Shown one piece after another: positions 49,742 through 62,182 of a stretch of 64,000 nucleotides of DNA (position 1 is its first letter; each line of letters starts with the position of its first letter). The DNA is from Bacteroidota bacterium. Lineage in GTDB: Bacteria; Bacteroidota; Bacteroidia; Palsa-948. The position numbers and the translations under genes are program-made. The notes beneath the pieces are model-generated. The model did no database searches. It was not told the origin of the DNA and worked only from the letters and a program-made list of their open reading frames with translations. The stretch spans positions 62,001 to 126,000 of the forward strand of contig JACQAL010000076.1 in NCBI GenBank assembly GCA_016195025.1. Reading direction: 5' to 3'.

Positions 49742-49920
49742 AGATTCCTCACTTCGTTCGGAATGACAGCGCTGTTTTATAGGATTGGGCGGTCGGGCTT
49801 AAGCCCGACCGCCTCCATTACCCGAATGCCCGTTGTCATTCCGAGTGAAACGAGGAATCTCTTTATTGATTCCACCCCCGTTGTCATTCCGAGTTCCTCA
49901 CTTCGCGGGACGAGGAATCT
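49742..49920. repeat. Cluster of REP-like GTCATTCCGA units
   Basis: Unit A (49742-49767) reads agattcctcacttcg...cggaatgac. Unit B (49835-49860) is its reverse complement with small changes. Unit C (49883-49920) is B with an inserted copy of the ttcctcacttcgcgggacg segment. A and B flank a perfect palindrome. The GIY-YIG gene ends inside unit C's last base. Confidence 0.8.
49788..49813. repeat. Perfect 26-bp palindrome
   Basis: GGCGGTCGGGCTT followed directly by its reverse complement AAGCCCGACCGCC, no loop. It sits midway between REP-like units A and B. Long loopless palindromes are unstable in bacterial chromosomes, so its survival suggests selection or recent insertion. Confidence 0.85.
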
Positions 49921-50264
49921 CATTTATTATTTCCAAACGAGGAACCTCTTTTTTCAGAAACAGGAATCTCTATCTTTCCATTTTCATACAAGTCCTTCCA
50001 TTCAGGATTCTGCTTATTGATGAGCGCAATCTTTTTCGCTCCCGAATATCCTTTGATTTGTTTCTCTCTGGCAATTGCCAAATCAATGAAATCAAATTTC
50101 TCAAAGTAAAGCAATTTATCTACATTATATTTTTCTGTAAATCCCTTAATCAATTTCTTTTTGTGTTCGAATGTTCTTCTTACTAAATCATTAATTACAC
50201 CGGTATAAAGAACAGTATGATTCTTATTGGTTAGAATGTAAACATAATATAAATGGATTTTCAT
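49920..50264 (-). CDS. Small GIY-YIG nuclease
   Basis: 114 residues. The single GIY-YIG domain begins YYVYILTNKNHTVLYTGVINDL (about residues 6-27; catalytic YVYI...YTGV) with the downstream Arg (LVRR) and Glu (AREKQIKGY). The family cuts DNA; stand-alone copies abound in Bacteroidota. Its last about 20 residues (EIPVSEKRGSSFGNNK) are encoded by the flanking REP-like DNA, so the gene appears to end inside a repeat. ATG overlaps the upstream stop by 4 bases (ATGA), suggesting coupled translation. Confidence 0.9.
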   Translation of the reverse strand: MKIHLYYVYILTNKNHTVLYTGVINDLVRRTFEHKKKLIKGFTEKYNVDKLLYFEKFDFIDLAIAREKQIKGYSGAKKIALINKQNPEWKDLYENGKIEIPVSEKRGSSFGNNK

Positions 50265-50818: not shown

Positions 50819-51738
50819 ATGAAAAAAATAATTTCTGCCTGCGGTTTACTGTTTTCGGTTTACGGTGGTTTTTCCCAAACCGATTCAACAAAAAAGCCCG
50901 CTGCGTTAACTGAACCTACAGATACCGGTCATGCCGGTTATGTTGTTCCGGGTTTGGACACCACGCATAAAGGCATTACCGATATGGGAGTGGCGGTGGC
51001 TCCTGCCATGTTGTTTTACCGCGTGAAGCCGGGAAACACCACCGTGCAGTATGTTACCATTACCAACGATACGTACAAGAAAAATAAATTCAAACTCACT
51101 TTTTCTGATTTCACCATGAGCGATGCAGGCGCCATTGAGCAAATTCCTATAGGGCAGAACGGGGAATACGGATTGACAAAGTGGATAAACGTTGCGCCCA
51201 ATTACATTGAATTGCAGCCGGGCGAAAAAAAAAAGTTGCCGTTACCGTTTCGCTGCCCGATAACGATGCCGCCTACCGCTCGCTTTGCGCGCTGCTGATG
51301 ATTGATAAAGTGATTGACCGCGATTATATCGCTCCGCCCGCCAACGATGATAAGAAGGTTGTGCTCGGAGTTATTCCCACTTATGGCTTCGGCATTTACA
51401 TTTATCAGAACCCGCCCAACGTGAAAATAAACAAAGTGGAAATCACCAATTTTAATTTTACTTACGATACGGCAAGCAAATATGTATCGCTGCATGTAAA
51501 AAACAGTGGCGATGGAACCGGCTTCTGCAAAGCATACGTTGAACTCACTAACACAAGCACCGGAAAAAATGAGCGCATTCCTTTACGCTCGTTCACTGTT
51601 TTTCCAAAAAAGGAACGCGGCTTTGAGTTTACCGTTCCCGGTAAAATTGCCAAAGGAAAATACTCTGCCATTGCGGTGCTTGATTTTGGCAGCAAGGAAG
51701 AATTAGAAGCCGCAACGCTTGAATTTTCAGTGCCCTGA
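50819..51738 (+). CDS. Periplasmic two-domain Ig-like (chaperone-like) protein, needs -1 frameshift
   Basis: Two overlapping frames: 50819-51298 (signal peptide, first Ig-like domain) and a second frame read from 51235 to 51738. The join is a run of ten A (51225-51234) followed by G; the codons GAA AAA AAA AAG end in A AAA AAG, the dnaX slippery heptamer, and a -1 step there yields GEKKKVAVTVSLPDNDAAY..., a 306-residue protein with no stop. Domain 1 (GVAVAPAMLFYRVKPGNTTVQYVTITND ... IELQPGEKKKVAVTV) has the PapD-like pattern 'polypeptide chain with conserved TITN strand, then LxPGE'. Domain 2 covers the second frame. First gene of the cluster; chaperone role is inference. Confidence 0.75.
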
Positions 51739-51755
51739 GGGCTGTTATTTTTTTT
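51732..51755 (+). terminator. Weak terminator after the chaperone-like gene
   Basis: GCCC-TGA-GGGC stem (51732-51742, covering the stop codon) followed by eight T (51748-51755). Short stem, so it may only lower read-through. Confidence 0.4.
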
Positions 51756-51919
51756 GTAACCTTTTTTCCGCATTGCCGTATTAAAGAGATATTTCTTCCT
51801 TATTATATACGTTATGCTGCGAAGCCCGCCCACCTAAAAATTTATGCCGTGTGAATTAAATATTCTTTTATCTTCGCTTTCCATTTCAACTAAGTAAAAA
51901 CAAATAAACAAAAACATCT

Positions 51920-52831
51920 ATGAAAAAAACAATTTTCCTACACGCAGCGTGCGCATTGTTCTTCGGAATAAATGCAAACGCACAATTGCAGGATGAAAAA
52001 AATGTAACCATCACAATGGATTTACAACCCATTCTGCAATTAAACATGCAAGGTCCTGACCAGATTGATTTCACCTTCGACCAGATTTATCAGTATTACG
52101 GAGGCATTACAAAGTATGGCGCAACTACGTTGAAAGTGAGCGCAAGCGTATCGTTCGACTTGTGGGCTGCAGGGCTCTCACAAGCGCAACTCGGTACCAA
52201 CTTTATGTGGGATAACCCCGTGAACTACGGTGGCGCTGCCGGTGGTAACGTTCTTAATGGCGCTAATAACTTCATTCCGGTTTCTGCGCTTGAACTGCGC
52301 CAGTTTCCCGCCAACCCGGCTGTGGCTGCTACCTGCGCTACAACGGGCGCTCAAAACAGCGATTACAGCAAGGCGTTTCAGGCGGCAACTGCCGCTGGCG
52401 TGGCTGCTTCAAACAACGATGTGTTTGCCGCAAACCCAACCACTCCTTACACTTCGCCTACTTCGGTAGCGGGTGTTACCTCTGATAAATACATTGCAGG
52501 AGGAACAGGTGTGGGAACATTTGCTGCTCCCTGCGGAATTGCGGGCGGAAGTTATTTAACGCAAGCCGCTTTGGGTACAAGTAATTACTATTATATTATG
52601 GATTACCGTTTGGTGCCAGGGCTTCCGGCAACTTTTCCTTTCCACAATAATGCTGCTACTGACAGAGCATTTGGTGGTACGGGCGCAACCATCAATTTCG
52701 GTTCTCCAGGCAATGTTGCCGTTGCTGCCGCACAAGGTGCTACCGGCTTAGGAAAAACCGGTGGAAACAACTTTGCTCAGCCCGGTGTGTATACCATGTA
52801 TGTAAAATATATTCTGGCAGAAGACCAGTAA
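51920..52831 (+). CDS. Secreted subunit-like protein 1 of surface cluster
   Basis: 303 residues. Signal peptide MKKTIFLHAACALFFGINANAQ. The first mature part (NVTITMDLQPILQLNMQGPDQIDFTFDQIYQYYGGITKYGATTLKVS; key residues DFTF, YYGGITKYGATTL) is shared with protein 2 (NLTFDNFGEYLAGITKYGASTLRL). It ends in an Ala/Gly/Asn-rich region and a last strand QPGVYTMYVKYILAEDQ, matching GEYTFIIDYQ/YQLTVKYCL of protein 2. Two Cys (AATCAT, APCGIAG). Two similar secreted proteins beside a chaperone-like gene suggest fimbrial or coat subunits; the family is not recognised by me. Confidence 0.75.
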   Translation: MKKTIFLHAACALFFGINANAQLQDEKNVTITMDLQPILQLNMQGPDQIDFTFDQIYQYYGGITKYGATTLKVSASVSFDLWAAGLSQAQLGTNFMWDNPVNYGGAAGGNVLNGANNFIPVSALELRQFPANPAVAATCATTGAQNSDYSKAFQAATAAGVAASNNDVFAANPTTPYTSPTSVAGVTSDKYIAGGTGVGTFAAPCGIAGGSYLTQAALGTSNYYYIMDYRLVPGLPATFPFHNNAATDRAFGGTGATINFGSPGNVAVAAAQGATGLGKTGGNNFAQPGVYTMYVKYILAEDQ

Positions 52832-52928
52832 TAAAAAAAGGAGAGAGAGAAACCCGTCTCTGCTATCAATAGTATTAACTAAAGATGGAGGGCAGTTGAG
52901 AAGTAAAAAGTCATCATAAATCAGTGAG

Positions 52929-52966
52929 ATGGGGGAAGCACGAAAAGTTTCCCCCATTCTTTTTAT
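52929..52966 (+). terminator. Rho-independent terminator between the two subunit genes
   Basis: Stem ATGGGGGAA/TTCCCCCAT (52929-52937 with 52949-52957), 11-base loop, then tctttttat. It would make subunit 1 transcripts more abundant than those of subunit 2 and the barrel protein. Confidence 0.75.
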
Positions 52967-53001
52967 AGGTTTTCTTCTATTGCTCTTCGCTCGTTTTTAC
53001 C

Positions 53002-53793
53002 ATGGAAAAATATAGGTTATTACTAAGGAATAAATCTATTCTTAGATTTAATGTCCTGTTTTTTGTTTTCTATTTGTTATCTACTCCTATGTTATCGGGT
53101 TTTCTTACCTGCTGCGCGCAAGCCCCCACCGTTTGCGATGCCGCCCCCGCAAACAACTGCTGCGCAGCCATAGGCAGCGGAAGCACCTTCACCCTGGCGC
53201 CCAATAACCCTTCCGATAACATTAACCTCACCTTCGATAACTTTGGAGAATACCTGGCAGGTATCACAAAATATGGCGCCAGCACTCTGCGCCTCACCAT
53301 TGCCGATGGCTCAGGAATACCAGGACCTTGCCCCGCCACACCCAGCATTTGCCGTTGGATATTGCATATAATGGAAGATAATTCAACCAACGTGGTGCTG
53401 CCCGCTGCCGCTGCAACCGAATGGGCGAAACTTGCCGTGTACGGAGGCGTGGGACCCATTTCAACCATACCCACACTTCCTCTGCTTCAAGTGCGCGTGC
53501 GCAACGCCTGCGGCACTTCCGAAACCAGCACCGGCTTTGTAACCCTTGCCAGCACCGCCAACTTCAGGTGCATCATTGATAACAGCTGCACCTCCGGCAC
53601 CGCCCCCGACACAGGTCCCCATGCCGACCAGCCGGCAGGTATGTGCACCATTAATGTAGATGAAGCGGGAGGTTATCTCACCAACCCCGGAGAATATACT
53701 TTTATTATTGATTACCAAATCAAGCCCACGCTCACCTTTGTGGCGGGCGTATATCAACTCACCGTAAAATATTGCCTGCGCAACGGACCATAG
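53002..53793 (+). CDS. Secreted Cys-rich subunit-like protein 2 of surface cluster
   Basis: 263 residues. N-terminal hydrophobic segment (about 14-40) then a mature protein rich in Cys (about a dozen: CCAQAPTVC, NNCCAAIG, GPCPATPSICRW, NACGTS, RCIIDNSC, MCTIN, KYCLRNGP), suggesting disulfide bonds. It shares the motif FTFD/NLTFD ... ITKYGASTLRL and the final strand with protein 1. Codons here are richer in C and G than in neighbours (many gcc, acc), which may mean transfer or strong expression. The ORF is followed after 23 bases of heptamers by the barrel gene. Minor or tip subunit is inference. Confidence 0.72.
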   Translation: MEKYRLLLRNKSILRFNVLFFVFYLLSTPMLSGFLTCCAQAPTVCDAAPANNCCAAIGSGSTFTLAPNNPSDNINLTFDNFGEYLAGITKYGASTLRLTIADGSGIPGPCPATPSICRWILHIMEDNSTNVVLPAAAATEWAKLAVYGGVGPISTIPTLPLLQVRVRNACGTSETSTGFVTLASTANFRCIIDNSCTSGTAPDTGPHADQPAGMCTINVDEAGGYLTNPGEYTFIIDYQIKPTLTFVAGVYQLTVKYCLRNGP

Positions 53794-53795
53794 AA

Positions 53796-53819
53796 TGACT
53801 AATGACTAATGACTAATGA
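53796..53819. repeat. taatgac heptamer array at the barrel-gene start
   Basis: Four taatgac-type units directly before and into the ATG (53816-53818). A second array of ttattca heptamers lies in the signal-peptide codons (about 53855-53884); the two contain mutually complementary cattag/ctaatg pieces. Confidence 0.75.
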
Positions 53820-56800
53820 AAAGAAAAATTACAAAAATAAGTATCCTTATTTGTTATTCATTATTCATTAGCCATTATTCATTTTCACAAGACACCGCTG
53901 CTGTAAAAAAAGACACACTTCCAAAAATTAAACCCGACACTGCCGCTGCTGCTGCCAAAGACACCACTCCAAAACCTCTATTCACTGCTTTTTTCGATAC
54001 CACAGAGTTCACATTAATAGAAGGAGAAATTGTTTCCAAAATACTGCGCCTGCAAAACAACAGCGGCAAAGAACAAAGCGTGCGCACCGCCATCAACTAC
54101 CCGGGCGGATGGAAACTACTCACCGATGTTTCAAAATATTACACTCTCGCCCCCAATGACAGCATTTTTATTCCCGTGCGCATTATCCCCTTGGGAAAAA
54201 TAAGAGGCAACACCAAATACCTCATCAACGCTTTTGTAATAAACAAAGATCAGGTGCCCATGGCAACTGCCTATTTTTATGCCGCCCGCCCCAAATCGGT
54301 TAACTGGGATATTACCATCTCCCCCTTCGATAAAGTGTACCTCATGAATGATTCCACCGGGGCAAAGTTTGATATCAACGTGCTCAACATCGGAAACGAA
54401 GAGCAGGCGCTGTTCATGCACATCAGCAATTACCGCAAAGATGTTTTACTCTACGACAGCACAGGGCGCATCCTCAAAAACACCTACCGCGAATTTAACC
54501 TCAAAGAACAGCATGACACTTCTTTTCATTACCGCGCAAGCATACTGCAAGGCAAGCGCAATTTCCGCACCGTAGATGAAATGGGTTATACCATCGGCTT
54601 TCTGAACGAGGCAAAACGCTATACTTTATTTGTTAACACCAGCCAAAGCCGCATACTCGGCACACAAGGCGTTCAGAAGATGAAAAAGGTTGACTTCGTG
54701 CGCCTGCCAAATGAAATGAAGGTAAACCCCAATAGTACTTTCTCCCTCCCCCTCATTGCCGAAGCCAATGTGGGCAACCTCGTTACCGGCCAGCCCGTAA
54801 TGAATCTTATGTTCTCCGGCTACACCACCCTTGATAATGGTGCAAGCATAAATTATTTCTCCCAGTTTTTCCTCTCGCTCTATTATGCCGATTTCAGTTT
54901 CCTGCGAAACAGCACCCAATACTTCGGCTACTATGACAAGAAATGGCAAATACAATTGGGAAGCGTGGGTGGCATTGGCGGAGCCATTGCAGCAGGGGGC
55001 AGAGGCGCCAACGCCATGTACCAGATTAATCAGCATCACTCCGTAGGTGCATTTTACACACGCGCACCCTATTTCTTTTCCAAACCCGACCGCGAATCGG
55101 TGGGCGCAGTATATGCTTTCAATGCATTGCGCTTCCGGCTCATGACTTCCTATTCTCACTTAAGCAATTCAGGAAACGTAAACTATACGTCCGATTACCT
55201 TGGCGCCAACAGCAATTACAGTTTCAGGGAAGGGCATTCCGTTACCTTTGGAGGATACGCTGTAAGAAATGCCTCCAGCGCCCCTGCAAACCCTTTTGTA
55301 AAATGGGGCTTCCTTGCCTACGGAAGTTATTCGGGAATGTTTTTAAAAGGGAAACTGCAATCATCGCTTTCCGGAAATTATATTTCTCCCTACTTCACCC
55401 CCTTCGACAAAGGCGATAAAATCACAGCCGCTCATAGCAGTCATTATATGCTCAACAAGCAATGGAACCTCCACCTGAACAACAATTACAATCGCAACAT
55501 TTACGAGCCGGTTCTCATCACTTCCAATCAGCAAAAACTCCGAAGCATCAACAACACACTTACTGCAAACACCAAAGTGGGAGAAAATTTTTTAGGCGGT
55601 GGTGTATTTTATAATTTCATCCGCAACAACGATACCATTAATATGCACTCACGCGGGCTCACCCTCAATTACAGCCAGGCAAAATATGAGAACAATACGT
55701 TCTTCTCTATGGGCATGCAGGGCGGATACAGCCGCCTTATAAACGCTCCCAATACGCGCGATTATTTTTTCTTCCAGTATTTCTCCCTCTTCCGGTATCA
55801 CACTTTTTCGGGAACCATTCGTTACAATTACGGGACCGTGTCAGTGCTTGACAAATATTATTCTGATAACGGAGTGTATTACCAATTCTTGGGAGCCAGT
55901 GTAAATTATCAATATCAATTCCGCAATCCGCACTGGGTGCTGAACGATTATTTAAGTTATGCCTATTACAACCAGTTTAAAAGGCATAGTATAGGTTGGA
56001 CGCCTGAAGTGCTTTACTTCAGCAAAACCGGATGGAGAGTGCGTGTAACAGGGGGGGTGTATTATTCTTCCAGCCTGGCAAACAGGGGAACAATTGCCAT
56101 TCCCGGTCAAACCGAAGAAGTGCCCGCACCTACAAGAACTCATTCTTACACTACCATGCTTCAGGTGGGCGTTCGCAAAGAATTTAACATTCCGTTTCCC
56201 TGGGGTAGCAAGAAAAGATTTTTCTCCCACACCTATATCGCATTCATTGACCTGAATGGAAATAATAAACGAGATAAAAATGAATTGCTGCTCGATAATG
56301 TCGTAGTCCGCACAGACGAATGGGAAGTTCTTACGGATGAAAACGGAAAAGCAAAATTGCTCAATATGGCTCCGGGCAGATATAATTTCTCTGCCTTCTC
56401 CCTCATTGATTTGAAAGGATATTTTCCGAATATTGAAGACAGCATTTCGGTTATTAAAAACGATACCATTCCAGTGCCTTTTGTGAAAGGAGTGAAAGTG
56501 TACGGGAATGTTTTTGTGGACAGAGAAAAACTTTCTCCCGATGCGGAAATTCCAGTTGACCTTTCAGGAATTCATATCAGCGCTTCAGGGGTAAGGAATT
56601 ATTCCACGCTCACTTCCAAAGATGGAACTTTTGAATTGTATGTCCCCTTTGGAAAATATACAGTAACAATGGATGAAAAAATTCTTGGCGACCGTTTTAC
56701 CTTGCTTCAAAACAATATTGAAATCACGCTTGATAAAAAAACCGAAAGTTTATTTGTAACATTTCTTATAGTCGAAAAAAGAAGAAAACTGAACATTAAA

Positions 56801-57220
56801 AAATTTGGCGAGCCAACCGGCAGCGCAAAGGATTCTGCTTCTTCAAATCCTGTAGCCCCTGCAGGAATTACATGGACAGGAACCGACACAGTTTCATCTG
56901 CCAAGCCATTGCCGGGCGCCATTAAAGTTCCGGGAAAAAATAATTTATATTACTACATGCTTCCCACAGGCCCGGGCGTAACATACCGCATTCAACTTGC
57001 AAGCACTTCCAAGCGGCTTACTCCTTCGCAGATTGCAACTCAGTTCAAAGGCGTGACGAATGTGAAAGAATATGTGGAAGGCGGGCTTTATAAATATACC
57101 GCTGGCGATGTAAACAGCGTAGGAGAAATTAAAAAGCTGAAAAATGATTTACGGACGAAGGGCTATAAAGATGCATTCATTGTTCCGTTCAAAGATAACC
57201 AGCGCCTGCAGTATAAATAA
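53816..57220 (+). CDS. Large outer-membrane protein: Ig-like, barrel, CNA-B/CarboxypepD-like, SPOR (usher-like)
   Basis: 1134 residues. Signal peptide (MKRKITKISILICYSLFISHYSFSQ), an Ig-like/NEW3-type region (about 45-260), a long barrel-like stretch full of Tyr/Asn/Gly strands (about 290-800), a CNA-B-like unit with FIDLNGNNKRDKNELLLDNV and VLTDENGKAKL (about 808-870), a CarboxypepD-regulatory-like unit (VYGNVFVDREKL ... TLTSKDGTFELYVPFGKYTV, about 893-985) and a SPOR-like C-terminus (YRIQLASTSK ... KGYKDAFIVPF, about 1055-1130). Ushers of fimbrial pathways also combine a barrel with such beta domains. This, next to a chaperone-like gene and two secreted subunits, suggests an usher-like exporter; SPOR would bind peptidoglycan. 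No detectable plug motif; not proven. Confidence 0.72.
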   Translation: MKRKITKISILICYSLFISHYSFSQDTAAVKKDTLPKIKPDTAAAAAKDTTPKPLFTAFFDTTEFTLIEGEIVSKILRLQNNSGKEQSVRTAINYPGGWKLLTDVSKYYTLAPNDSIFIPVRIIPLGKIRGNTKYLINAFVINKDQVPMATAYFYAARPKSVNWDITISPFDKVYLMNDSTGAKFDINVLNIGNEEQALFMHISNYRKDVLLYDSTGRILKNTYREFNLKEQHDTSFHYRASILQGKRNFRTVDEMGYTIGFLNEAKRYTLFVNTSQSRILGTQGVQKMKKVDFVRLPNEMKVNPNSTFSLPLIAEANVGNLVTGQPVMNLMFSGYTTLDNGASINYFSQFFLSLYYADFSFLRNSTQYFGYYDKKWQIQLGSVGGIGGAIAAGGRGANAMYQINQHHSVGAFYTRAPYFFSKPDRESVGAVYAFNALRFRLMTSYSHLSNSGNVNYTSDYLGANSNYSFREGHSVTFGGYAVRNASSAPANPFVKWGFLAYGSYSGMFLKGKLQSSLSGNYISPYFTPFDKGDKITAAHSSHYMLNKQWNLHLNNNYNRNIYEPVLITSNQQKLRSINNTLTANTKVGENFLGGGVFYNFIRNNDTINMHSRGLTLNYSQAKYENNTFFSMGMQGGYSRLINAPNTRDYFFFQYFSLFRYHTFSGTIRYNYGTVSVLDKYYSDNGVYYQFLGASVNYQYQFRNPHWVLNDYLSYAYYNQFKRHSIGWTPEVLYFSKTGWRVRVTGGVYYSSSLANRGTIAIPGQTEEVPAPTRTHSYTTMLQVGVRKEFNIPFPWGSKKRFFSHTYIAFIDLNGNNKRDKNELLLDNVVVRTDEWEVLTDENGKAKLLNMAPGRYNFSAFSLIDLKGYFPNIEDSISVIKNDTIPVPFVKGVKVYGNVFVDREKLSPDAEIPVDLSGIHISASGVRNYSTLTSKDGTFELYVPFGKYTVTMDEKILGDRFTLLQNNIEITLDKKTESLFVTFLIVEKRRKLNIKKFGEPTGSAKDSASSNPVAPAGITWTGTDTVSSAKPLPGAIKVPGKNNLYYYMLPTGPGVTYRIQLASTSKRLTPSQIATQFKGVTNVKEYVEGGLYKYTAGDVNSVGEIKKLKNDLRTKGYKDAFIVPFKDNQRLQYK

Positions 57221-58210
57221 TTATTTGCCGGAAAAATATTCATAGTAATATTTAATTGCGCTGGAGGGCTCATCGTATAAATCATATTGAATTTCTTCAC
57301 TCGGCAAATTTTTTGCATTGTATTTATAAATTGTTTTTGAAAGCACATTGCCGGCACCATCGTATTTGATTTCAGAAATTTTATTTCCCTTCGCATCATA
57401 GTTCCAAACTATGCGCGTGGTGCCTGCTCTTTGATAGGTAATTTCGCTGAGCAGATTTTTTTTAGCATCGTATTCGTAATTGGTTTTATAATTAATGCTG
57501 CCATCTGATTCGTAGCAGATAGTTTTTGTTTTTAGCCCGCCTTCGTTATATTCATAAACATATTTTGCCGTTACGGAATCTTTTTTCATCAGCAGCATCA
57601 GCGTGATATTATTTTTTGAATCATAGTTTATTATTTTCTTCCCCGTTTGAACAGAAGAAGAATCGTATTCGGCTTCTTCGGTTTTATCTCCTTTTTCATC
57701 GTAGGAAAAAGTTTGCCTTGCTTGCATTTTCCCGGTTGAATCAGAAATTATTTTTTCAATCTCCTGATTTTTTGCATTGAACTTACTGGCGGCTTTGAAA
57801 ATTATTTTTTCGCTGGCATCGTATTCGGTTTTTTCCTGCAGGTTGCCGGGCGAATCATACAGATAAATATCTTTTGAATGAAAAGAATTATCTGCATGGT
57901 AAGAAGTTTCCAAACTTAATTTCCCTTTTTCATATACATAACTGATTTTTCCGTAGGGTGAACTGTCTTCAATGAGATTTCCTTTTTCGTTATATTTTTT
58001 TGTATAAAGCAGCGAGGAGTCGCGCTTCTTTTCTCCTAAGGAATATTTAAACTCATACGCATTTTTTGATTGTATGAACCATTGATTTTTTTCGGGCAGT
58101 TTATTTTTTGCCGGAGTTTTTTTGGAAGCGGATTTAGTTTTCGTTTGGGAAAATGATTCTGTTTGAAGAATAAATAGTCCGAAAGAAAAAAGCAGTATAC
58201 GAAAAATCAT
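57221..58210 (-). CDS. Exported YD/RHS-type repeat protein
   Basis: 329 residues. Signal peptide MIFRILLFSFGLFILQTESFSQ, a Lys-rich linker (SASKKTPAKNKLPEKNQ), then about ten YD-like repeats of about 20 residues (YNEKGNLIEDSS, YDSPGNLQEKTEY, YDEKGDKTEEAEY, YDAKGNKISEIKYDGAGN). These repeats form beta-sheet wraps in RHS/teneurin-like shells or simple solenoids. No toxin tip is seen. It ends adjacent to the convergent barrel gene. The following TPR gene lies 6 bases upstream on the same strand, so the two are likely cotranscribed. Confidence 0.85.
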   Translation of the reverse strand: MIFRILLFSFGLFILQTESFSQTKTKSASKKTPAKNKLPEKNQWFIQSKNAYEFKYSLGEKKRDSSLLYTKKYNEKGNLIEDSSPYGKISYVYEKGKLSLETSYHADNSFHSKDIYLYDSPGNLQEKTEYDASEKIIFKAASKFNAKNQEIEKIISDSTGKMQARQTFSYDEKGDKTEEAEYDSSSVQTGKKIINYDSKNNITLMLLMKKDSVTAKYVYEYNEGGLKTKTICYESDGSINYKTNYEYDAKKNLLSEITYQRAGTTRIVWNYDAKGNKISEIKYDGAGNVLSKTIYKYNAKNLPSEEIQYDLYDEPSSAIKYYYEYFSGK

Positions 58211-59701: not shown

Positions 59702-62182
59702 ATGAGAAAACCCAAACATATTAACAAGGAATTTGAAACGCTGAAAGTGCTTGGCGATATTGGCAGAGATATCACTTCTTCGCTTGACTCTGAAAAAATT
59801 TTATTTACCGTTTATGAAAAAGTGAACAAACTCATGGATGCCACTGTGTTCGGAATCGGGCTGTACGATGCGAAGAAAAAAATAATTGACTACCAGCTTG
59901 CCATTGCCGAAAAGAAAAAATACAAACCCTATTCGCGAAACATGAAAGATAAAAATCAGTTTCCCGTCTGGTGCATTGAAAATAAAAAACCGGTTTTCAT
60001 CAATAATGTTTCACAGGAATATAAAAAGTATATAAAAAAATATTTTGACTCAAACCGCGAACTGGAAGACGGGAGCACCGAGCGCATTATTCATTCCATG
60101 CTTTACCAGCCGATAATAGTAAAGAAAAAAGTGCTCGGAATAATTTCAGTTCAGAGTTACCGGAAAAATGCGTACGATAAATTTCAACTGGAGATTTTGC
60201 AGAACATTGCTTCGTATACCGGCATTGCCATTGAAAATGCCCGCCTGCTTACCGAAGCAAAAACTTTTTCAAGAGAATCGGTTGCGCAGAAAAATAAAAT
60301 AGAAAAAACATTTCAGCATACAAAACTCCTGGCGAAAATTTCGGAAGAGATTGCTTCCTCTTTATCGGTGGAAGAAATTATTTCCCGCGTTTATAAAAGC
60401 GTGAACGATATGATGGATGCTTCGGTGTTCGCCATTGGTCTTCACATGCCCGAAACAAATGAACTTTATTATCCGGGCGATATTGAGAAAGGAGAAAAAC
60501 TTCCGCCCAATTCTACTTCGTTGGAGGAAGAAAAGAAAACCGCTGTAAAATGCTTTAAGAATAAAAAAGAATTTTTCATTAACGACTGGGAAAATTTTTA
60601 TTTCCGGGAGCACGGTGTTCTTCCTCCGAAAGCCGATGTGGGCGATACGCCTTCTTCCATTATTTATTTGCCGTTGTTGATTAAGGAAAAACCGATGGGA
60701 GTTCTCACCGTGCAGAGTTTCCGGAAGAATGCATATACGGAATATCACCTGAATATTCTCCGCGCGCTGGCGGTTTCCACTGCAAAGTCGCTCGAGAACG
60801 CGCGGCTGTATGAAAACATGGAAGGAGAAGTGAAAGCGCGCACGGTGGAAATTAGAAAGCAGAAAGAAGAAATTGAACAAACATATCAGAATGTAAAACT
60901 TCTCAGCGAAATAGGGCAGAAGATTACTTCAAGTTTATCAGTGGAAAAAATTATTGTAACGGTGTATGACCACATCAATCAACTCATGGACGCTTCGAGT
61001 TTCTGGATTGGAATTTACAACGAAGAAAAACAAACGCTCGATTACCCGATGGGAATTGAGCGCGGGCAGCATCTTTCCTTTGCGCATTATAATTTATCAG
61101 ATGATTACTGGATTCCCGTCTGGTCGTTCAAAAATAAGAAAGAAGTTTTTGTGAATGATTACGAGCGCGAGTACAACAAGTACATTCCCAGCCGCCCGCT
61201 GCCGAAAGCCATTGCAGGAGAAGCCCCGCAGTCATCCATCTGGATTCCGCTTTTTACAAAAGATAAAAAGCAACTTGGCATTCTCACCATTCAGAGTTTT
61301 CAGAAAAATGCCTACACGGAATTTCATCTCAATGTGGCGCGGAACCTTGCGCTCTTCACTGCCATTGCCCTTGAAAATGCTTTGCTATACGAAGAGTTAA
61401 TGAATAAAAATAAAGACATTACTGACAGCATTAACTACGCGAAAAAAATTCAGAACACCATTCTCCCTTCCGAAGAAAAAATAAAAGAACTTTTGCCCGA
61501 ATCATTTATTCTCTACAAGCCGAAAGATATTGTGAGCGGAGATTTTTATTTTATTGACCGCGCGCATGGAAACGGAAAAATAATTGCAGCCGCTGTTGAT
61601 TGCACCGGGCATGGAGTTCCCGGAGCATTTCTCACCATTGTTGGAAATGATTTGCTCGATAACATTATCAATGAAAGAGGAATCACAAACCCGAAAGAAA
61701 TTATTTCTGAAATGAACGAAGGAATCATTCACCGCCTTTCGCTCGTGGACGATGTGCAGCATTTGCGCGATGGAATGGATATGGCGGTATGCACCATTGA
61801 CAAATCATCGAATCAACTTTCTTTGCTTTATTCAGGTGCGTACAACCCGCTGTATTTTATCCGTGATGGAAAATTAATTGAGATGGATGCCATTCGTTTC
61901 AACATCGGGAGCATTCCGGAAACTGCGAAAGAAAAAATTTCCTGCCATACGATGGAAATTGAAAAGGGAGATACGGTATATCTTTTTTCCGATGGCTATG
62001 CCGACCAGTTGAATCACGACACGGGAAAAAAATTTATGAAGGGAAGATTCAAGCAACTGCTTCTCGATATTCATCAGAAACCCATGAGCGAGCAAAAACA
62101 AATTCTCGAAGCAACACATATTGAATGGAAACACGGGCTTTTTCAAACCGATGATATTCTGGTAATGGGATTTCGTTTCTGA
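59702..62182 (+). CDS. Triple-GAF SpoIIE protein phosphatase (SiaA-like role)
   Basis: 826 residues, no membrane helix or signal peptide, so cytoplasmic. Three GAF domains (about 15-185, 205-385, 400-570), each opening with a SSLSVEKI/SSLDSEKI-type helix and ending GIAIENARLL / STAKSLENARLY / TAIALENALLY, then the helix SINYAKKIQNTILPSEE and a SpoIIE/PP2C phosphatase domain (GDFYFIDRAHG, DCTGHGVPGAFL, DMAVCTIDKS, LFSDGYADQLN). GAF units sense small molecules and control dephosphorylation. The next gene encodes a SiaC-family protein, the known phosphoprotein substrate class of SiaA phosphatases. Confidence 0.93.
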   Translation: MRKPKHINKEFETLKVLGDIGRDITSSLDSEKILFTVYEKVNKLMDATVFGIGLYDAKKKIIDYQLAIAEKKKYKPYSRNMKDKNQFPVWCIENKKPVFINNVSQEYKKYIKKYFDSNRELEDGSTERIIHSMLYQPIIVKKKVLGIISVQSYRKNAYDKFQLEILQNIASYTGIAIENARLLTEAKTFSRESVAQKNKIEKTFQHTKLLAKISEEIASSLSVEEIISRVYKSVNDMMDASVFAIGLHMPETNELYYPGDIEKGEKLPPNSTSLEEEKKTAVKCFKNKKEFFINDWENFYFREHGVLPPKADVGDTPSSIIYLPLLIKEKPMGVLTVQSFRKNAYTEYHLNILRALAVSTAKSLENARLYENMEGEVKARTVEIRKQKEEIEQTYQNVKLLSEIGQKITSSLSVEKIIVTVYDHINQLMDASSFWIGIYNEEKQTLDYPMGIERGQHLSFAHYNLSDDYWIPVWSFKNKKEVFVNDYEREYNKYIPSRPLPKAIAGEAPQSSIWIPLFTKDKKQLGILTIQSFQKNAYTEFHLNVARNLALFTAIALENALLYEELMNKNKDITDSINYAKKIQNTILPSEEKIKELLPESFILYKPKDIVSGDFYFIDRAHGNGKIIAAAVDCTGHGVPGAFLTIVGNDLLDNIINERGITNPKEIISEMNEGIIHRLSLVDDVQHLRDGMDMAVCTIDKSSNQLSLLYSGAYNPLYFIRDGKLIEMDAIRFNIGSIPETAKEKISCHTMEIEKGDTVYLFSDGYADQLNHDTGKKFMKGRFKQLLLDIHQKPMSEQKQILEATHIEWKHGLFQTDDILVMGFRF

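Follow-up and report, generated by a model that had tools for sequence, protein, structure and literature searches.

Chaperone-usher pili (the Fim and Pap types, archaic Csu, alternative CFA/I and ECP) are built from subunits that have a signal peptide, a beta strand at the C-terminus and a donor-strand-like segment at the N-terminus, together with a PapD-type chaperone and a large barrel protein that has an immunoglobulin-like (Ig-like) N-domain and two C-terminal beta domains. The same parts stand in one operon, as they do in those pili, at positions 50819-57220 of the window analysed here, a stretch of 64,000 nucleotides (nt) from a genome of the class Bacteroidia (assembly GCA_016195025.1, contig JACQAL010000076.1, positions 62,001-126,000, forward strand). 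Unlike the pili, this four-gene operon encodes no protein that reaches the Pfam cut-off for usher or PapD; its barrel protein, as modelled, has 26 barrel strands, no inserted plug and two N-terminal Ig-like domains; its subunits differ in sequence from known pilins; a SPOR tail is optional and the hosts are Bacteroidia. The operon is thus outside the described chaperone-usher pathways as judged by their defining sequence families and their inserted plug. We consider it very probable, even so, that it directs the assembly of a fibre by a route that works like the chaperone-usher pathway.

Three other described systems bear comparison. The structures TLP-1a and TLP-1b (CryoSeek, Wang et al. 2024, PNAS) include a sequence homologue of the first subunit, whose modelled fold matches theirs; TLP-1 is known here as a structure alone, and the operon, chaperone and barrel are features of the Bacteroidota loci. 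The type V pili (FimA/Mfa1) are surface fibres of Bacteroidia, in the same phylum. Type V pilins are lipoproteins and need neither chaperone nor usher; the subunits here, unlike them, carry signal peptides of the ordinary kind, have Gln at +1 and lack a lipobox Cys. Enterococcus WxLIP (9i1y, 9i25), the best non-TLP Foldseek match, likewise has two Ig-like domains, but is a Gram-positive wall protein with a WxL partner and has no barrel or fibre operon. A literature search returned no description of this four-gene system, although the CryoSeek study may already name Bacteroidota homologues.

The four genes are all on the + strand and encode a chaperone-like protein (50819-51738), subunit 1 (51920-52831), subunit 2 (53002-53793) and the barrel protein (53816-57220), with genes on the opposite strand at both flanks. 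A sequence-only reading of the window had already described their order, sizes and signal peptides, which are present in the sequence, and had pointed out that both subunits share the motif ITKYGA[T/S]TL and have similar last strands, as is the case (PGVYTMYVKYILAEDQ and AGVYQLTVKYCLRNGP). Its count of four genes holds for the subunits and the barrel gene, which are intact; the first gene is interrupted, its reading frame shifting at a run of ten A.

The proposed fibre subunits and TLP-1

Subunit 1, proposed as the secreted major fibre subunit, is by sequence homologous to the protomer of a solved extracellular fibril. The profile of its family matched the Protein Data Bank (PDB) entries 9ikk (TLP-1b) with E 3e-65 and 9ikj (TLP-1a) with E 6e-64, and the window protein alone matched 9ikk with E 1.7e-33 (phmmer); identity to TLP-1b is 39% for the window protein and 35-50% across aligned relatives. 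The closest locus, in a metagenome-assembled genome (MAG) labelled Chitinophaga pinensis, reaches 54% identity to TLP-1b over the whole stretch used. At the level of fold, the subunit model of a relative matched 9ikk with a template-modelling (TM) score of 0.82 of the target at 42% identity (Foldseek). According to their PDB titles, 9ikj and 9ikk are electron cryo-microscopy structures; each has 16 chains and both were released in November 2024. We take them to be the fibrils found by the CryoSeek study in a campus pond, TLP-1 fibrils having reportedly been imaged in that work from pond water. Helical fibril assembly is a property that would be predicted for subunit 1 from this homology. Neither subunit fell into any NCBIfam family or gave a meaningful Pfam match, and an hhalign comparison of subunit 1 with K-12 pilins aligned 15 columns at probability 16 and was not used.

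The N-terminus of subunit 1 has features that a donor-strand mechanism would call on. In 82 of 111 homologues, 29 residues lead from the +1 Gln to an anchor Phe and show the alternating hydrophobic pattern VTITMDL, a segment counted from the alignment (a regular expression had caught 36 of 124); in the window, the candidate donor strand of the mature protein, QLQDEKNVTITMDLQPILQL, is encoded at 51983-52042 (+ strand). At the other end, the C-terminus of the subunits lies six residues past a GxYxMxVxY motif in 114 of 127 matches. The subunits have a conserved Ala-Gln cleavage site and no lipobox.

Subunit 2 is a secreted, Cys-rich relative of subunit 1, as profile matches indicate (E 5e-28 to the subunit 1 profile and a weak E 1.7e-8 to TLP-1b), with four to six cysteines where subunit 1 mostly has none. 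Its N-terminal segment is about 20 residues long or rich in Cys, Pro and Asn, with no alternating pattern; the window copy has a long one (38 residues), which is Cys-rich and again not alternating. In known pili the tip is formed by the subunit that lacks a donor strand, and by this analogy subunit 2 is probably the tip or initiating subunit. The gene is closely linked to that of the usher-like barrel protein, the median gap between them being 6 nt.

Between the two subunit genes lies a terminator-like hairpin with a 12-bp stem and a T run (52928-52958, + strand), which we propose as an attenuator. The 58-nt stretch that contains it has a folding energy of -20.8 kcal/mol (z -3.6), and of the 81 homologous gaps that separate subunits 1 and 2, 23 have a hairpin that passes strict criteria, against 0.0 in shuffles; under the same criteria one was present in 1 of 61 gaps between chaperone and subunit 1. 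The position of the hairpin suggests a control by read-through that would make subunit 1 the abundant product. Promoter-like sites were no commoner than in shuffles.

The chaperone-like and usher-like proteins

The chaperone-like protein is related to the PapD family at the level of sequence profiles. By hhalign, a profile of 37 members matched eleven K-12 PapD-family chaperones with probability 96 and E 4.7e-9, collinearly and over both domains, so that GFGIFIFQNPP aligns with the G1 strand (SRIKLYYRP) and LDFG with NDYG; as a control, the chaperone profile was compared with the subunit profile and the result was negative. The sole invariant residue of the chaperone superfamily is a proline in strand D1 (PMC4654587). 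In the present family it stands in a PSF.EL motif, is found in 95% of 97 chaperones and aligns with the proline of TPPLF in FimC.

Structural comparison gives a more divided picture. Foldseek matches of the chaperone fold were WxLIP, Caf1M, YadV, PapD, FimC and CsuC, with WxLIP structures ahead of the PapD type (6e-13 vs 1e-9), and WxLIP_PGBD was the commonest Pfam match of the family (27 of 37 members, best 1.3e-9), PapD_N being matched by 8 of 37 (best 0.0013); in the genome of the window neither PapD_N (PF00345) nor Usher (PF00577) was matched. By modelled fold, therefore, the protein stands between the WxLIP and PapD groups. One explanation for these data is that the Ig-like protein binds peptidoglycan or a partner in the manner of WxLIP and that the locus builds a wall-anchored surface layer, which the SPOR tail of some barrel proteins would also fit. 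We regard this as highly unlikely, as the PapD-family profile match extends over both domains, no WxL domain was matched in the window proteins or in the subunit 1 family, and a usher-like barrel and a fibril-type subunit are encoded alongside.

The reading of the protein as a PapD-type chaperone is favoured by its model, in which a fold of the PapD type includes a long G1-type strand and the protein is docked to subunit 1, in agreement with the role proposed in the sequence-only reading. In several relatives the chaperone and subunit 1 genes are in the same frame, so that natural DNA, with stops read as a residue, gives one chain. Such a chain, from locus L129, was modelled with an alignment of 32 joined and 45 unjoined rows and reached a predicted local distance difference test score (pLDDT) of 82.2 and a predicted TM score (pTM) of 0.82 despite about 80 disordered residues. 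We estimate that undocked halves would give a pTM hardly above about 0.5, so that the chaperone and subunit 1 appear to be placed confidently in the predicted complex. A strand of 17 residues (157-173) occupies the G1 position of the chaperone, from which we infer its insertion into the subunit. The first 13 residues of the mature subunit, QLQDEKNVTITMD, are unstructured in this model, as a donor strand would be expected to be before exchange; in the modelled complex the N-terminal candidate donor strand of subunit 1 is free.

In the window itself the chaperone is read in two frames. The zero frame (50819-51298, + strand) encodes the signal peptide and the first Ig domain (chaperone profile E 8e-20, with a weak WxLIP_PGBD Pfam match), and another frame (51298-51738, + strand) encodes the G1-type strand (GVIPTYGFGIYIYQNPP) and the second Ig domain (chaperone profile E 5e-33). 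The frame breaks at the A10 run (51225-51234, + strand), which has an A AAA AAG heptamer. The chaperone genes of 110 relatives are all single-frame, with a longest A run of nine; programmed frameshifting as a conserved feature was therefore rejected. The break may be an assembly error, a mutation or a slippage site, the heptamer being one that would allow slippage. A frameshift found in no relative could also mean that the chaperone gene is truly broken and the locus inactive in this genome, a possibility that we take seriously but hold to be doubtful, given that the other genes are all intact and that sequencing errors are common at A10 runs. As A AAA AAG is of a known slippery type, some full-length chaperone could still be made.

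The barrel protein (1134 residues, + strand) was modelled with AlphaFold2 at a mean pLDDT of 82.9. The secondary structure of the model (DSSP) places two N-terminal Ig-like domains at residues 56-302 (53981-54721) and a beta barrel of 26 strands at residues 310-793 (54743-56194); these are followed by two C-terminal beta domains at residues 803-987 (56222-56776), which are SpaA/SdrD_B-like and CarboxypepD_reg-like, and by a SPOR fold behind a disordered linker, at residues 1055-1126 (56978-57193). The domain list given in the sequence-only reading is borne out by weak Pfam matches to CarboxypepD_reg, SpaA and SPOR, and the model agrees. That reading had also singled out the SPOR tail, which occurs in only 16 of 113 full-length relatives and so does not define the system; it was dropped as a defining feature. 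The second Ig-like domain stands directly before the barrel and, as a speculation, could replace the inserted plug.

The best solved folds for the barrel protein are ushers: FimD came first (3rfz, 5e-14), PapC followed at 3e-10, and entries of these two made up 8 of the first 12 Foldseek matches. By predicted fold and architecture the protein is usher-like, homology to ushers not being proven; NCBIfam gave no usher relationship, and as a single-sequence query against the genome contigs it returned no match. Another possibility is that the barrel is an ordinary large porin, a receptor or an LptD-like export barrel and that the small secreted proteins are surface partners that form no polymer. 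The barrel of LptD has 26 strands, the number counted here, TonB receptors and LptD are among the Foldseek matches at about 1e-6, and no usher was matched by sequence. Ushers nevertheless rank several orders of magnitude ahead of these, subunit 1 has homologues among solved helical fibrils and a PapD-type chaperone is co-conserved, which makes this explanation very unlikely.

It could also be that the subunits polymerise and yet are exported and assembled without donor-strand exchange at the barrel, for example by being secreted first and polymerised outside. The low TM-scores and missing plug that qualify the link to ushers would allow for this, as would the dissimilarity of the subunits to enterobacterial pilins in sequence. 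We think it unlikely, because a chaperone with a G1-type strand is predicted to dock with subunit 1, the alternating hydrophobic N-terminus of that subunit is free in the model, and the gene order keeps subunit 2 tightly coupled to the usher-like gene.

Distribution and variants of the locus

Relatives of the barrel protein, as found by its profile, occur in 53 of 395 Bacteroidia genomes and 34 of 197 genera; the order and family of the window genome are represented in this set by its own genus only. A phylum-wide sample of 396 genomes gave 13 barrel-profile matches, all in Bacteroidia but for one weak match. In the loci fetched through the barrel profile, the genes for the chaperone, both subunits and the barrel are repeatedly found together, and every genome with subunit 1 has the barrel protein (32 of 32, vs 53 of 395 overall). 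The Pfam usher family PF00577 was matched in none of the 395 Bacteroidia genomes, a control search finding that of Escherichia coli.

An independent search was made from the side of subunit 1 among named genomes, and the best 80 of 96 relatives were kept. Their hosts are nearly all Bacteroidota MAGs from lakes, groundwater, ponds, the sea and sediment, one being a MAG labelled Chlorobiota, and the isolates among them are Flavicella marina, F. sediminum, Wenyingzhuangia aestuarii and W. heitensis. All four genes are present in the fetched stretch in 70 of these 80 independent loci, a recurrence that argues against a chance arrangement. The survey of gene order proposed with the sequence-only reading thus finds it kept across Bacteroidia, with chaperone, subunit 1, subunit 2 and usher-like gene strictly consecutive in 57 of the 80; in several of the remaining loci a contig end interrupts the locus or the chaperone gene lies downstream. 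On each of the three points that the sequence-only reading had named as able to refute it, namely the barrel fold, the Ig-like protein and the conservation of gene order, the outcome favours that reading.

The window genome has only one such system, and most genomes of the same genus have a second, diverged type. In this paralogous type (L032, L033, L035, L036 and L038, all of the same genus) the subunits and the usher-like gene stand in a row and the chaperone is divergent; a repeat-rich MORN-like protein follows the chaperone, and the gene directly downstream of the usher-like one encodes a large, hydrolase-like secreted protein of about 980 residues. In L177 and L178 the order is subunit 1, chaperone, subunit 2 and usher-like gene, subunit 2 still adjoining the latter. 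An extra subunit 1-like gene is present in L112, L113, L158 and L193, with a form of 440-450 residues replacing subunit 2 in L112 and L113; such genes suggest that these fibres have at least two major components or a tip protein of larger size. L139-L143, from other Bacteroidia families, have a chaperone near the usher-like gene and subunits that are unrecognised or very diverged, and are possibly further branches.

Around the operon, a small open reading frame upstream (49920-50264, - strand) looks GIY-YIG endonuclease-like by eye (YYVYILTNKNHTVLYTGVIND). A secreted protein with a weak RHS-repeat match (57221-58210, - strand) is convergent with the usher-like gene and abuts it. Further on, the protein encoded at 59702-62182 combines three GAF domains with a SpoIIE phosphatase domain and is possibly a regulator of stress or surface signalling.

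A proposed assembly pathway

We propose that the PapD-like chaperone uses its long G1 strand to complete the as yet unfinished Ig fold of newly exported subunits and so prevents their clumping, and that the periplasmic domains of the usher-like barrel take up the chaperone-subunit complexes. Subunit 2, having no donor strand, would start the fibre as its tip, and subunit 1, in excess through the hairpin 3' of its gene, would then be added copy after copy, with the N-terminal VTITMDL strand of each entering the preceding copy and displacing the chaperone strand there. Export through the barrel would yield a thin fibre of the TLP-1 type on the cell surface, and the SPOR tail, where present, would hold the barrel to peptidoglycan. 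We also lean towards the wider view that these loci form a separate Bacteroidota branch of chaperone-usher systems, with a plug-less barrel and a subunit family of its own, that makes the orphan freshwater TLP-1 fibres. On this view the branch would also be the chief system of its kind in Bacteroidia, a class that seems to have no canonical ushers.

Several observations weigh against the pathway proposed. The TM-scores of the barrel protein to ushers are low (0.23 of the query and 0.31 of the target), its barrel has 26 strands as counted in a predicted model vs 24 in ushers, and no plug domain is inserted between the strands of that model. An hhalign comparison gave no profile match to K-12 ushers, and Pfam Usher was matched by 0 of 45 members of the usher-like family; with such low TM-scores and no profile-level similarity, the protein is usher-like by predicted fold and architecture only. 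The docking model joins the proteins of a relative, was made without a non-partner control and its coordinates were uninspected, and in the window itself the chaperone gene is frameshifted. Classical chaperones anchor the carboxylate of the subunit with two conserved basic residues, and in the alignment no column around strands A1 and G1 has a basic residue that is conserved. Archaic and alternative chaperones have a conserved Arg in strand F1 (Arg89 of CsuC); here 88% of chaperones have a basic residue directly behind the F1 strand (Arg in 71%), its equivalence to Arg89 of CsuC not being established. The fibre on the carrier bacteria is itself deduced from a locus known here from genes and models alone.

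If the proposal is correct, it would be clear what makes the TLP-1 fibrils of pond water, to which phylum the maker belongs and with what machinery it assembles them, and chaperone-usher assembly would reach the Bacteroidia in a form wholly missed by current profile libraries. Cultured marine strains of Wenyingzhuangia and Flavicella carry the system, which would allow direct tests.

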